From the NCBI GenBank assembly GCA_030830785.1, contig JAURMI010000022.1, forward strand, positions 1 through 64,000: a stretch of 64,000 nt of DNA, written 5' to 3'. This document shows positions 13,360-16,468 of the stretch, one piece after another. The notes under the pieces were generated by a model. The model was not told the DNA's origin. It was given only the letters and a program-made list of their open reading frames with translations, and made no database searches. Both the position numbers and the translations under genes were made by a program. Origin of the DNA: Crocinitomicaceae bacterium. Lineage in GTDB: Bacteria > Bacteroidota > Bacteroidia > Flavobacteriales_D > Crocinitomicaceae. How positions within the stretch are numbered: position 1 is the first letter of the stretch; every line of letters starts with the position of its first letter.

Positions 13360-14322
13360 CTAAAAAGAAGGACAACTTAATCTACGAAAATCTCGCACTG
13401 GCTTCTTGCACTTAAGATTTATTCCCAAAGAAACTTCATGGGAACCTCCACTAACGCCATTTCCTAATTGAGAAACCGTTAAATCATAGCTATAGCCAAT
13501 TCTGTACTTATCGGTAGTTAGCCCCAGAGTTAATATAAACGCATCCTTATTTCTATACCAAGCTCCAATGGTAAAACTTTCATATTTTAAATAGGCACCA
13601 ATATTGAGTTGTTGGAAGCCATTTTGGTATTGATATATGACATTGGGAGAGAGCGAAGTAGTGCTTGAATAACGTCCTCGTTGGCCCAGTTTTATGGTTG
13701 CACCCATATGTCCTGTCAATTTAATAGGTAGTTTGGAAACGCCCAAAATTAAAGATTCATCGGGTTGGTTGAGGTGATGGGCAGCTGCACCGAAATAAAA
13801 GTTTTTACTAAATCCTACTAGACCGGCAGAAACATCGAAGAATCCTCGGCTGCCATTGCCTCTAGGAACATCTCCTGTTTGATAAATAAAACCCCTACGT
13901 GGGTCTATCATGTCGCCAAAAGTTAATTTACTCCAATCTAGAAATTTTTGGTAATATGCTGCTTGGGTCCCAAACATGAGTCGAAATTTTCGGTTAACTT
14001 TTAAATAATAGGAATAGCTAGCACCAATCATAGATGTTTGTATTGTTCCTTGACCTTGCATATCGTGCATAGCTACTAGTCCAACACCTCCTGAAATGTT
14101 TTTAAAATAACTGTCATAGGCAGCAGCATAAGTGATGTAGTTGCCTGTTAGTTGTGGCCATTCATTACGGTAGTTTAGAGCGATTCTCGGACAGCCACTA
14201 GAACCCGATAATGCAGGATTCAGATAGGAAGGATTGGCATAAAATTGAGTAAAGGTAGGATCTTGAGCAAGGAAATTCCACCCAAAGGCAACGAATAAAA
14301 TTGTAAAGCAAATGTTTTTCAT
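13360..14322 (-). CDS. PorP/SprF family T9SS outer-membrane protein
   Basis: PorP/SprF proteins are outer-membrane barrels that help secrete or anchor specific T9SS cargo. The 320-residue protein has a signal peptide (about 1-19). The family hallmark near the mature N-terminus is FTQFYANPSYLNPALSGSSG. The barrel contains GGVGLVAMHDMQGQG, then SAGLVGFSKNFYFGAAAHHL and SPNVIYQYQ. It is the third gene of the sigma / anti-sigma-fusion operon, one base after the fusion gene. Its barrel can be aligned end to end with the C-terminal half of that fusion protein. No large T9SS cargo gene sits beside it, unlike the usual SprF-SprB arrangement. Confidence 0.93.
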   Translation of the reverse strand: MKNICFTILFVAFGWNFLAQDPTFTQFYANPSYLNPALSGSSGCPRIALNYRNEWPQLTGNYITYAAAYDSYFKNISGGVGLVAMHDMQGQGTIQTSMIGASYSYYLKVNRKFRLMFGTQAAYYQKFLDWSKLTFGDMIDPRRGFIYQTGDVPRGNGSRGFFDVSAGLVGFSKNFYFGAAAHHLNQPDESLILGVSKLPIKLTGHMGATIKLGQRGRYSSTTSLSPNVIYQYQNGFQQLNIGAYLKYESFTIGAWYRNKDAFILTLGLTTDKYRIGYSYDLTVSQLGNGVSGGSHEVSLGINLKCKKPVRDFRRLSCPSF

Positions 14323-14323
14323 G

Positions 14324-15919
14324 TCAAATTTTGATATAATGTCTGGCCTGGCGGCTTTGTTGTGAATAAATACGTAATGAAATTTGATGTAAATAGCTCG
14401 GCGTGTTCATCGAAAGGAGTTGTTGCTGACAACTTTGAAGCAGCAGCGCAGCGTTTTTGCCAACATAACCAATAGAAGCCTGATATAAATTATTTTGCGC
14501 TACATTCAAACCAAATTGCCATTTATTAATATTTAATTGCATTCCAGCATGAAATTGGCTGTTCAATGGATTTTGAGTGTATAAAAAATAAGGGGAGAAA
14601 CGCATTTTTTCATTACGTGACGCAAATTGGGTTCCAAGTGCAACTGTGATCAAATGTGATGCCCGACTATTTTTTGGTTGTAATTGATTGCCCATTACAT
14701 AGTCGAAATGTTTGAAAACATTTTCTATTTGCGCACTTGCAAATAAAATTGGAGTTTGAATAGCAAAGCCCAAATCAAGATCGCGATATAAAAGTCGTCT
14801 GCCTATACCTTGAGTACTATCAAAATTGACCTCACGTACATCGGCATTCTGAAATTCGATGAAGTCGAGATTACTTAGTTTTTCGGCATTGACTTCTCTA
14901 GAGCCCATACGCAAACGTGCTGCAGGTTCTATTATCACATGACGTGAAATTAGAAGTTTCGGCGAAGCAATCAATCCAATTTCATAATCGCAAATTGCTG
15001 CTCCACCATGCTGCATATATTTGCCTTGCAAACCAAAACCAGCACGAAGATTTCTCGAATAACCATCCAAACTAAACTGCTGACCTAAAAGTGCTTGTTG
15101 GTGATTGATACCACTACGCCCTAAACTCAGGGTTTGAAAACGGGTTTGAGATTTTGATCCAACACTACTTAAATTCGCATCTATAGCGCTCTTTGCTGGT
15201 AACAGTAAATCATAGCTTTGATTGTTGGTCAGCCCCAGCTCTTTTTGGGCAAAATTATTTAATTTTTGAAGATTGGGTAAACGAACTTTTTTATTGCCAT
15301 TGTTTTCAAGAGCAATTCCTGAAAGATGCTCAAATTGTAGATTTGTACGGTAGCCATCTATTAATCTTGGAAAAGCCGGTTTTAAAGTATGTATAGCTTG
15401 AACATGCGTCTGAAGATTAGATTTTTCATCCTTAAGAAATAATTCTTTGTTTGATAAAAGGGTATTTGAAGTCAACAGTTCAATATTTCTTCGATGATTG
15501 CTCAAAGGGTTGTTGGCATTTATGTTATCAAGGGGTTTTAAATTGTTATTTGAATTTAAATGAACCGTTTTTATTTGAGGAATGCTAGATTTTAACTTTG
15601 CAATTTGTTCGGGATTGTTCTCAAAAGGTATTGAATTTCTTGGCCTAAGAAAATAGCTACCGCCTAGAATTAACAGTAGAATTATGGCAGCAGCATAATA
15701 ATGCAACTTGGCGAACCTTTTTTGACGATACAACTCACTTTTAGGTTCATAAGTGATAGGAGCAGCGTCGAATTTGGTGGTTTCCCAAGCTTCTTGTTCT
15801 AAACTAAGTTCTGGATGATTATCAAGAAAACTGTCAAGTTGTGCTTGCTGTTCTGGGCTTAAATTTCCTTCTAAGGAATCAAATAGCCATTGATCTAGAT
15901 TTTCAAATGTTGGTTTCAT
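14324..15919 (-). CDS. Anti-sigma-like membrane protein fused to a PorP/SprF-like domain
   Basis: The 531-residue protein has three parts. Residues 1-72 are a cytoplasmic module (DQWLFDSLEGNLSPEQQAQL, then DNHPELSLEQEAW) like the N-termini of Bacteroidota anti-sigma proteins. Residues 73-89 form one membrane helix. Residues 90-260 are a Asn/Leu-rich linker without clear domain. Residues about 262-516 resemble PorP/SprF. AGFGLQGKYMQHGGAAI matches the neighbour's GGVGLVAMHDMQGQGTI, FAIQTPILFASAQIENV matches its VGFSKNFYFGAAAHHLN, and FSPYFLYTQNP matches its LSPNVIYQYQN. The PorP N-terminal FYxNPxxLNPA motif is missing. It overlaps the sigma gene by four bases (ATGA). The topology (inner-membrane helix plus barrel-like domain) is unusual. 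Similarity was judged by eye, and regulation of sigma is inferred. Confidence 0.78.
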   Translation of the reverse strand: MKPTFENLDQWLFDSLEGNLSPEQQAQLDSFLDNHPELSLEQEAWETTKFDAAPITYEPKSELYRQKRFAKLHYYAAAIILLLILGGSYFLRPRNSIPFENNPEQIAKLKSSIPQIKTVHLNSNNNLKPLDNINANNPLSNHRRNIELLTSNTLLSNKELFLKDEKSNLQTHVQAIHTLKPAFPRLIDGYRTNLQFEHLSGIALENNGNKKVRLPNLQKLNNFAQKELGLTNNQSYDLLLPAKSAIDANLSSVGSKSQTRFQTLSLGRSGINHQQALLGQQFSLDGYSRNLRAGFGLQGKYMQHGGAAICDYEIGLIASPKLLISRHVIIEPAARLRMGSREVNAEKLSNLDFIEFQNADVREVNFDSTQGIGRRLLYRDLDLGFAIQTPILFASAQIENVFKHFDYVMGNQLQPKNSRASHLITVALGTQFASRNEKMRFSPYFLYTQNPLNSQFHAGMQLNINKWQFGLNVAQNNLYQASIGYVGKNAALLLQSCQQQLLSMNTPSYLHQISLRIYSQQSRQARHYIKI

Positions 15920-16422
15920 GAAGCCAGTACAAATTGTCCTTTAATGCGTTTTTTGACTTTGAGCCTTGCTCTGAAAAGATATACTTTTACTTGGGCTTCT
16001 GATAACGACAAAAGCCCACCAATTTCTTGGTAAGTGTATCCTTCCAAGTCTCTAAGTAACAAGATGCTCTTTTGTAACGGAGGTAAACCTTCAACCAACA
16101 ATTGAATAAGTTGTTGATTTTCGAAAGAATTTGCATTACTCGAGTGCTGATTCAAATAGAGAGATTCCAAATGTTGCTGTTTTACTTTCTGGCGTTTTAT
16201 CTGATTTAACATCAGATGATTTGCGCAGGTAAACAACCAAGATTTAGATTTTTCTAAAGGTATCTGCTTCTTGTTGACCCACAATTTTTCAAAGCAATCT
16301 TGTACAGTATCGCGCGCTGAGTCCACATCTCTTGTAAAATGCAGGCAAAACCGGTACAGCGCATCGCTGTTTTGGTCCACGCAGATATTGTAGTCGTTGC
16401 GATTCAAAATTGTGTCTTGCAA
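15916..16422 (-). CDS. ECF-type RNA polymerase sigma-70 factor
   Basis: The 168-residue protein has sigma region 2 (DALYRFCLHFTRDVDSA, then VQDCFEKLWVNKK, about residues 20-85). Region 4 carries the helix-turn-helix around GYTYQEIGGLLSLSEAQVKV (about 125-150). No other domains are present, as expected for an ECF sigma. The start is TTG at 16422. The frame has a stop 12 bases upstream and no ATG before region 2, so this is the best start codon available. The stop overlaps the anti-sigma-like fusion gene, the typical sigma/anti-sigma coupling. A 28-base inverted repeat lies just upstream. The targets are unknown. Confidence 0.93.
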   Translation of the reverse strand: MQDTILNRNDYNICVDQNSDALYRFCLHFTRDVDSARDTVQDCFEKLWVNKKQIPLEKSKSWLFTCANHLMLNQIKRQKVKQQHLESLYLNQHSSNANSFENQQLIQLLVEGLPPLQKSILLLRDLEGYTYQEIGGLLSLSEAQVKVYLFRARLKVKKRIKGQFVLAS

Positions 16423-16426
16423 TAGA

Positions 16427-16434
16427 ACAATTTA
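16427..16434 (-). promoter_or_regulatory. Weak -7-like box four bases before the sigma gene TTG
   Basis: Minus-strand TAAATTGT is an imperfect match to TAnnTTTG. It is followed by TCTA and the TTG start, with the same four-base spacing as elsewhere in the window. Confidence 0.25.
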
Positions 16435-16440
16435 CTTTTA

Positions 16441-16468
16441 GTAAAAGTTACAACCAAATAACTTTTAC
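16441..16468. promoter_or_regulatory. Inverted repeat upstream of the sigma operon (candidate operator/autoregulatory site)
   Basis: Arms GTAAAAGTTA and TAACTTTTAC are perfect complements separated by eight bases (CAACCAAA). A third copy, ACTTTTA at 16434-16440, adjoins the left arm. It lies 19-46 bases upstream of the sigma start codon, where a promoter or operator is expected. No T-run follows in a position suited to a terminator. Binding protein unknown. Confidence 0.5.

Follow-up and report, generated by a model that had tools for sequence, protein, structure and literature searches.

A probable trans-envelope anti-sigma factor with a PorP/SprF-type barrel, encoded in a conserved ECF sigma factor operon of Crocinitomicaceae and relatives

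Genes and features of the operon

The operon described here lies in a 64,000-nt stretch of DNA from a Crocinitomicaceae bacterium (contig JAURMI010000022.1), which as a whole is referred to as the window. It comprises the genes for an extracytoplasmic function (ECF) sigma factor, for a protein that we call the fusion, and for a PorP/SprF protein, a relative of the shuttle proteins of the type IX secretion system (T9SS). In the fusion, a predicted anti-sigma domain, a membrane helix and a tether precede a PorP/SprF-like barrel (Table 1). We consider it probable that the fusion is a trans-envelope anti-sigma factor of the dual membrane-spanning (Dma) type with a PorP/SprF-type (FadL-fold) barrel, and that through it the state of the outer membrane sets the composition of the outer membrane. 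An original prediction, made from the sequence of this locus before the present analysis, had proposed an anti-sigma-like protein fused to a PorP/SprF-like domain, and the open reading frame (ORF) that it named was confirmed in its coordinates, strand and length.

The three genes are tightly arranged. The 3' end of the sigma gene and the start of the fusion gene overlap by 4 nt (ATGA), and the start codon of the PorP/SprF gene lies 1 nt past the stop codon of the fusion gene. In the sigma protein, both ECF regions (2 and 4) were recognised with scores over the curated cut-offs (PF04542, 39.2 bits; PF08281, 58.4 bits), while the best NCBIfam match, NF058625, reached 114.8 bits and thus remained under its 130-bit cut-off. 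The sigma gene is likely to start with the TTG codon at 16407 (minus strand), giving a protein of 163 residues, because the listed start at 16422 is located only 3 nt behind the promoter box and because the sigma proteins of relatives mostly have 161-185 residues. By eye, a TTG start shortly past the promoter was apparent for the sigma genes of the window and of many relatives.

Table 1. Positions of the operon genes, the predicted promoter and the parts of the fusion protein in the window.
Feature	Position	Strand	Remarks
Fusion gene	14324..15919	minus	531-aa ORF: predicted anti-sigma domain, membrane helix, tether and PorP/SprF-like barrel
ECF sigma factor gene	15916..16422	minus	168 aa as listed; TIGR02937 75.8 bits (cut-off 42.9)
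PorP/SprF gene	13360..14322	minus	320 aa, third operon gene; PF11751 E 1.2e-58, TIGR03519 E 1.8e-69
Predicted ECF-type promoter TGTAACTTT-N12-ATTGTT	16426..16452	minus	exact pattern match
Predicted cytoplasmic anti-sigma domain, residues 1-60 (helices 8-47)	15740..15919	minus	AlphaFold2; alignment of 22 N-termini
Predicted inner-membrane helix, residues 68-90	15650..15718	minus	AlphaFold2; hydropathy in relatives
Predicted periplasmic tether, residues 91-239, mostly predicted disordered, short helix 215-225	15203..15649	minus	AlphaFold2
Predicted barrel N-terminal segment and 14-strand PorP/SprF-like barrel, residues 240-518	14366..15202	minus	AlphaFold2; profile comparison; fold search

Relationship of the fusion barrel to PorP/SprF proteins

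A profile built from 29 aligned fusions was compared with a profile of 16 adjacent PorP proteins by the use of hhalign. The two matched with a probability of 99.5 and an E-value of 2.7e-22 over 287 columns, residues 234-529 of the fusion being aligned with residues 20-313 of PorP, whereas five OMP_b-brl_2 proteins, which served as a control, gave no match to the fusion profile (probability 0.1, E 0.73). The similarity can therefore be accepted as not being due to chance and, as judged by these profiles, the fusion barrel is homologous to PorP/SprF. Among the 29 aligned fusions, 10 matched PF11751 of Pfam and 11 matched TIGR03519 of NCBIfam at E 0.01, with best values of 7.4e-23 and 6.6e-30, respectively. 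The PorP/SprF-like domain had originally been placed at residues 262-516, which is close to the position of the predicted strands. This kinship held at the level of the family, but not for the window protein taken alone, which had no PorP_SprF match in Pfam or NCBIfam at E-values up to 10. In a two-sequence comparison by BLASTP, the window fusion and the neighbouring PorP were weakly similar (E 0.006), and neither the PorP protein nor the fusion profile, when used to search PDB sequences, retrieved a relevant chain.

The AlphaFold2 model of the fusion, which is the basis for the fold and topology presented here, was compared with solved structures. With VIA-align, CymD (Z 22.5) and 8gl6_F (Z 22.4, root-mean-square deviation 3.2 over 253 residues) were tied, and 6h3i chain F and 9n2d chain B had Z scores of 21.9 and 19.9. 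Chain F of both 8gl6 and 6h3i is, as we assume, the T9SS protein PorV, and 9n2d chain B is presumably BamG of the Bacteroidota β-barrel assembly machinery (BAM) complex. The top ranks were thus taken by FadL-family channels and a T9SS translocon chain, a result that does not separate a T9SS-type barrel from a FadL/CymD-type one. Plain Foldseek placed general porins on top and 8gl6_F at rank 33. These fold searches barely probed residues 1-239 of the fusion. The model of the adjacent PorP, which is of low confidence (mean predicted local distance difference test score, pLDDT, of 61), was most similar to OmpG and CymA, with a Z score of 17.6 for 8gl6_F.

According to the accessible part of a published description, PorV and PorP-like proteins are 14-stranded barrels of the FadL family (PMC9143113), and AlphaFold2 and VIA-align indicate the same type of barrel for the fusion. 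PorP/SprF proteins are, however, stand-alone exported barrels with an N-terminal signal peptide, as far as the available portions of two articles describe them (PMC9143113, PMC12618676), whereas the fusion has a helical N-terminus with a hydrophobic helix at residues 68-90. Because a cytoplasmic domain and an inner-membrane helix occupy the place of the signal peptide, the fusion is a carrier of a PorP/SprF-homologous domain, yet it is not itself a PorP/SprF protein.

Predicted architecture of the fusion protein

In the AlphaFold2 model, the N-terminal domain consisted of three helices (residues 8-17, 22-34 and 36-47), with block pLDDT values of 91-95 for residues 1-40 and of 79 for residues 41-50. 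The single membrane helix, originally assigned to residues 73-89, was predicted to span residues 68-90. The pLDDT was <50 for residues 92-214 of the tether, and the 14 main barrel strands were located between residues 260 and 518, mostly with high confidence. A fold other than a barrel, which the original prediction had named as an outcome that would speak against it, was thus not obtained, and neither was its second computational counter-outcome, a C-terminal half with no PorP/SprF hit in profile comparison. The even number of strands would fit an entry of the tether from the periplasmic side.

This architecture recurs in the relatives. A hydrophobic stretch over the threshold, starting at residue 71-90, was detected in 70 of the 71 complete relatives, and their linkers measured 139-277 residues (median 181), a range that includes the originally estimated length of about 170 residues. 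The ratio of nonsynonymous to synonymous substitution rates (dN/dS) was available for 10 of 15 selected pairs of close relatives. It amounted to about 0.03-0.12 for the barrel and to 0.24-0.56 for the linker, while the values for the 60 N-terminal codons were erratic (0.03-0.62). In all 10 pairs, the dN of the linker exceeded that of both ends of the protein. A low dN/dS for the barrel and a higher one for the linker is the pattern that should be expected if a functional barrel is held by a flexible connection.

Conservation, distribution and origin

An ECF sigma gene was found directly upstream of the fusion gene in 80 of 80 loci, these being the best 80 of 94 relatives, and the pairing with a sigma factor gene is therefore a regular feature of the family. 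The fusion was complete in 71 of these loci and all 71 complete ORFs hold both ends of the protein. A PorP/SprF gene was located directly downstream in 65 of the 66 loci where this could be assessed, the exception being L148. When relatives were compared with the fusion, 48 of 60 matched at E 0.01 or better; in some of them the match was confined to either the PorP portion or the N-terminal one. The carriers were mostly Crocinitomicaceae and unclassified Flavobacteriales, and they include one cultured strain, Crocinitomix catalasitica ATCC 23190 (locus L126). The organism names attached to four loci (L073, L078, L089 and L148, named as Sphingomonadales, Chryseobacterium gleum, Chitinophaga pinensis and Saccharospirillaceae) are implausible, and these loci probably stem from mislabelled metagenome bins.

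At the level of the order, near-full-profile matches were counted by hand in 92 of 299 genomes, two of which (G145, G169) had an internal stop. These matches belonged to families f1, f3, f10, f11 and f13, plus one genome of family f9. At the level of the class, 17 of 396 genomes matched at E 1e-38 or better, among them a PorP-only match (G377) and an N-terminal piece (G022). Eight of the 17 belonged to family f24, which lies outside the order, and the trio of sigma, fusion and PorP genes was present in all eight f24 loci, the PorP being fragmentary in two. The genome search for the same domain order that had been suggested at the outset thus detected it in several families of the Flavobacteriales and in a second order. 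Chance or an artefact of a single assembly was rejected as an explanation, since relatives recur in the species, order- and class-level searches; likewise, a confinement of the fusion to one genus was rejected in view of its presence in several families plus f24. Defective copies were also encountered: a frameshifted one in G008 (L009 and L039), a broken one at G288:C7:359877-362527, and the stop-bearing ones on G145:C509 and G169:C71.

In a tree of 49 barrels, which lacks one PorP of the window's genome (L157), 20 fusion barrels and 29 other PorP proteins were found on opposite sides of the midpoint root (labels 84 and 100). The fusion barrels followed the order of the neighbouring PorP proteins, but on much longer branches. 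Within the limits set by midpoint rooting and low sequence identity, the simplest reading would be a single old origin of the fusion barrel through duplication of a PorP gene. A second PorP of the window's genome (G000:C10:62005-62850, locus L154) falls into one subfamily with the operon PorP, as judged by the profile (E 7.1e-189) and the tree.

A class of barrel-less paralogues, of about 390-470 residues, was observed in loci L063-L071 (e.g. L063:5541-6860 and L067:5503-6774). Besides one helix and a C-terminal end that is conserved, its members have the N-terminal domain of the fusion, apparently in repeated form. One survey placed a related sigma gene upstream for 8 of the 9 loci, and another found it for the ninth locus as well. 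Of seven neighbours scanned on the downstream side, five were OMP_b-brl_2 proteins and two were peptidyl-tRNA hydrolases encoded by the opposite strand. This raises the question whether the barrel-less class might be a two-protein counterpart of the fusion.

A conserved promoter element associated with the fusion system

Regions upstream of the sigma genes were taken for 78 of 81 loci (the window and the 80 loci), and 77 remained after one mis-cut region (L082) had been left out. A conserved element, TGTAACTTT-N12-WTTGTT, was present in exact form in 60 of the 77 regions and in a relaxed form in 74. In the window, the pattern occurs once (16452..16426), and it was absent from 100 shuffled versions of the window. 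In family f24 the promoter is recognisable by eye, the strict form being present in only 2 of the 8 loci. In the window's genome, a relaxed pattern was dismissed, as it gave 4 sites against 6 in the control. At the barrel-less loci, inspection of the sigma upstream regions by eye revealed TGTAAC in 7 of 9 and a CGTC-type -10 box in 9 of 9; the -10 box therefore differs between the fusion and the barrel-less systems. An inverted repeat, GTAAAAGTTA...TAACTTTTAC, at positions 16468-16441 of the window (minus strand) overlaps the -35 box and might represent a second binding site. By eye, GTTAC...GTAAC was seen at this place in a number of relatives.

In 46 genomes of the genus, including the window's own, 56 exact sites were found as compared to 3 for the reversed pattern, and 32 of the 56 precede a sigma gene (30 judged from their place, two checked). 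In 117 genomes of the family, the table sums to 135 exact sites versus 14 for the control. The relation to the fusion was examined in the 99 family genomes common to both surveys, using a table compiled by hand in which the fusion was scored as present at E below 1e-38, the partial copies of G022 and G032 and the broken copy of G288 being counted in. Sites beyond the sigma operon numbered 57 in 69 fusion genomes and 4 in 30 fusion-less genomes (Fisher p-value of 1.5e-5, disregarding the relatedness of the genomes). This concentration of extra sites in fusion genomes ties the predicted promoter element to the fusion system.

Predicted targets of the sigma factor

Among the 24 genus sites located away from the sigma operon, 23 were judged by eye to precede a signal-peptide or lipoprotein start, and one (L279) was not. 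The 23 include L265, whose lipoprotein start is truncated where the contig ends, and L270, with a script score below the threshold. Together with 41 further sites from other genera, and after removal of L265 and L333 for which no ORF was found by the script, 63 downstream ORFs were available. The sites left unexamined in the family are 17 in other genera, from genomes outside the order-level search, and the extra sites of G290, G332 and G244. By a hydropathy score, a signal-peptide-like start was assigned to 58 of the 63 ORFs, whereas 95 of 314 genes taken as background had one. Fusion-less genomes contributed four sites; L280 is the only one of these that precedes a gene for an exported protein, and no convincing gene of this kind was located behind the sites of G204 and G123. 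The second site of G288 precedes a lipoprotein gene.

The commonest products were small lipoproteins from two functionally uncharacterised families, with 16 and 8 of the 63 ORFs (L271, L272, L275-L278, L282 and many of L317-L352). At L277, one member of each of the two families is encoded side by side. Several families of barrel-like proteins also recur behind the promoter, and three of the 63 ORFs encode PorP/SprF proteins (profile E-values of 5.8e-34, 6.9e-20 and 1.5e-11). Two sites precede genes for other sigma factors, which may be due to chance or reflect a cascade. Behind the other sites, neither a cargo protein with a type B C-terminal domain (CTD) nor a core gene of the T9SS could be identified by eye, by Pfam searches of ten products or by PorP, fusion and sigma profiles run on the 63 ORFs. 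This target set is a predicted regulon. Since the other sites mostly precede genes for exported proteins, namely lipoproteins, barrel-like proteins and PorP/SprF proteins, it suggests that the sigma factor controls the composition of the outer membrane.

Comparison with known systems

The fusion can be filed with the Dma anti-sigma factors, a class for which a 2024 PNAS article by Pardue is cited, because its domain layout agrees with the published description; it may work in an analogous way. In the accessible part of that description, Dma proteins of Bacteroides consist of a sigma-binding domain, a membrane helix, a disordered tether and a barrel, and an ECF sigma gene is adjacent in the cases of Dma1 and Dma2 (PMC13088901). 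The fusion is also from the Bacteroidota, has the same domain order and, as predicted for it and seen in its relatives, the same single membrane helix, long disordered tether and C-terminal barrel. It differs in that its barrel is of the PorP/SprF type (Dma barrels having been compared by description only), that PorP/SprF is the third gene of the operon, and that the genes predicted to be its targets encode lipoproteins and other proteins of barrel-like type. The terms "PorP" and "type IX" are absent from the main text of the 2026 Dma article (PMC13088901). In a search mainly of openly available literature, largely of titles and abstracts, we found no published PorP/SprF-type anti-sigma fusion and no description of the conserved trio with PorP and its linked promoter. 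The layout as such is thus already known from Dma, and the parts not found described are the PorP/SprF-type barrel, the trio and the promoter. The original prediction considered the combination unusual, a view that has to be revised: it is not rare, since the Dma layout has been published for Bacteroides and since the variant with a PorP-type barrel occurs widely among Crocinitomicaceae and their relatives.

In cell-surface signalling of the FecR type, an event at the outer membrane likewise governs an ECF sigma factor, but that system divides the roles of TonB-dependent receptor and anti-sigma factor between two proteins. PorV and BamG, the latter described in PMC12611786, share the FadL-type 14-strand fold with the fusion but have no regulatory domain; the likeness shown is one of fold. 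Another counterpart in layout, as far as the accessible text goes, is the pair M0N98_03761/03760 of Phocaeicola vulgatus, in which a sigma gene is followed by that of a large anti-sigma factor; the latter has a barrel for the outer membrane and is predicted to reach across the periplasm. The type of barrel is not specified there, and the pair, alongside which the EcfO pair of B. fragilis is cited, is unlike the fusion in being induced by a toxin (PMC9308784). A parallel for the control of T9SS genes by an ECF sigma factor is provided by F. psychrophilum, in which several T9SS genes, like an ECF sigma/anti-sigma pair, are preceded by promoters of the SM6 class, according to the part of the article available (PMC9723704).

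Proposed mechanism and alternative explanations

In the mechanism that we propose, the N-terminal domain would hold the ECF sigma factor whose gene immediately precedes that of the fusion, the helix would anchor the chain in the inner membrane, and the disordered tether would cross the periplasm to the barrel, which would reside in the outer membrane. If the barrel gained or lost a partner, failed to insert or changed in a similar manner, this would be signalled through the tether and set the sigma factor free, in the likeliest case because the tether or the helix is cleaved. The freed sigma factor would then transcribe its own operon, giving feedback, as well as the genes for barrel-like outer-membrane proteins and lipoproteins. 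The N-terminal tail of FadL-family barrels runs into the pore, according to the accessible part of one article (PMC12611786). Residues 234-259 of the fusion align with the N-terminus of PorP, and the tether leads straight into this segment, which may be the route for a mechanical or protease-exposing signal. The ORF, the barrel homology, the predicted fold, the gene order and the promoter with its distribution were established by computation; sigma binding, insertion in both membranes at once, the release step and the signal itself are what we infer.

Several observations weigh against this proposal. The N-terminal domain had no significant match to an anti-sigma family in Pfam or to a PDB entry, and its matches to zf-HC2 were all sub-threshold, the best one being that of a barrel-less paralogue. 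An anti-sigma activity is therefore suggested by gene order, predicted fold and topology, and the residence of one chain in both membranes at once is likewise a prediction. The loci were collected by scanning named species genomes with a pattern of the N-terminal domain. The promoter is linked to the sigma factor by association, and the Fisher test took no account of the relatedness of the genomes. The window's genome, which is 83 percent complete, contains one exact site, that of the operon itself, and one credible site with one mismatch, located before a lipoprotein gene (the product shares 33.6 percent identity over 113 residues with the product behind another genome's site); two-mismatch sites in this genome were dismissed as noise (34 versus 61 in the control). 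The hydropathy score used for signal peptides is a crude one and the choice of downstream ORFs favours long ORFs; moreover, L313 (63 residues), one of the 58 positive ORFs, is probably not a gene. Lastly, "barrel-like" was mostly assigned by eye, and of ten target representatives searched in Pfam only one, a match over the PF13568 cut-off, passed an outer-membrane barrel cut-off, with two further barrel matches below the threshold.

The lack of a significant anti-sigma family match for the N-terminal domain could mean that it is not an anti-sigma domain at all and that the protein, a PorP-like barrel anchored in the inner membrane, has another role. We regard this as very improbable, because a sigma gene lies immediately upstream in 80 of 80 loci, with the 4-nt overlap in the window, because a short helical domain precedes one membrane helix, and because this N-terminal family follows a sigma gene in the barrel-less paralogues too. 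The predicted disorder of the tether and the elevated dN of the linker would also be in line with a routine periplasmic cut that divides the chain into a conventional anti-sigma factor of the inner membrane and an independent PorP-like barrel, so that the fusion merely couples their amounts. The presence of both ends in all 71 complete ORFs and in the ORFs of the second order makes this improbable, the defective copies of G008, G288, G145 and G169 being the exceptions.

Two other explanations concern what a trans-envelope anti-sigma factor of this kind would sense. The original prediction envisaged a report of T9SS cargo or secretion state, which is possible but unproven. Here, the barrel would bind a type B CTD protein, the SprA translocon or the adjacent PorP, and the sigma factor, reading whether it is occupied or empty, would adjust the supply of PorP. 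PorP/SprF proteins do bind type B CTD cargo, as the available portions of two reports describe (PMC9143113, PMC12618676). The window's genome contains 6 genes for PorP/SprF proteins, and 17 matches to type B CTDs in it exceed the cut-off; PorP is encoded in the operon while the promoter stands before three further PorP/SprF genes. The direct connection of the tether to the N-terminal segment of the barrel makes a mechanical reading of cargo binding conceivable. Against this stands the target set, in which inspection by eye and family searches on part of it recognised no type B CTD or T9SS core gene. The whole-genome search for type B CTDs gave no match inside the window, and thus no type B cargo gene beside the operon, and the fusion barrels, on branches much longer than those of the adjacent PorP proteins, may have lost the ability to bind cargo. 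We give this explanation a rather low chance. The same applies to its broader form, in which a T9SS shuttle barrel has turned into a receptor: its state, bound to or free of type B cargo, the translocon or a PorP partner, would be relayed along one continuous chain to the ECF sigma factor, which would reset how much PorP, lipoprotein and barrel-like protein is supplied. Alternatively, the barrel could serve as a test substrate of BAM, a failed insertion leading to cutting of the then unprotected tether and to a sigma response that rebuilds outer-membrane proteins and lipoproteins. The predicted targets do resemble such proteins, and the Phocaeicola system, which shares this layout, is induced by a toxin, in which its authors, in the accessible text, see a response to envelope stress (PMC9308784). 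However, genes for chaperones, proteases and BAM, which are expected in a stress response, were not recognised by eye among the targets, and the conservation of a specific PorP-type barrel together with a PorP partner points to a role beyond that of an unspecific test substrate. A sensor of outer-membrane assembly is accordingly a possibility to which we give a rather low chance.

Implications

The findings on the fusion extend the Dma layout from Bacteroides to the Flavobacteriales and one further order. They indicate that the outer-membrane part of a trans-envelope sensor can be a T9SS-related, shuttle-type barrel, and the predicted promoter, together with the candidate target genes, makes it testable what trans-envelope sensors detect. 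If the barrel does sense type B cargo, the fusion would provide a direct feedback from T9SS-related events at the outer membrane to transcription.

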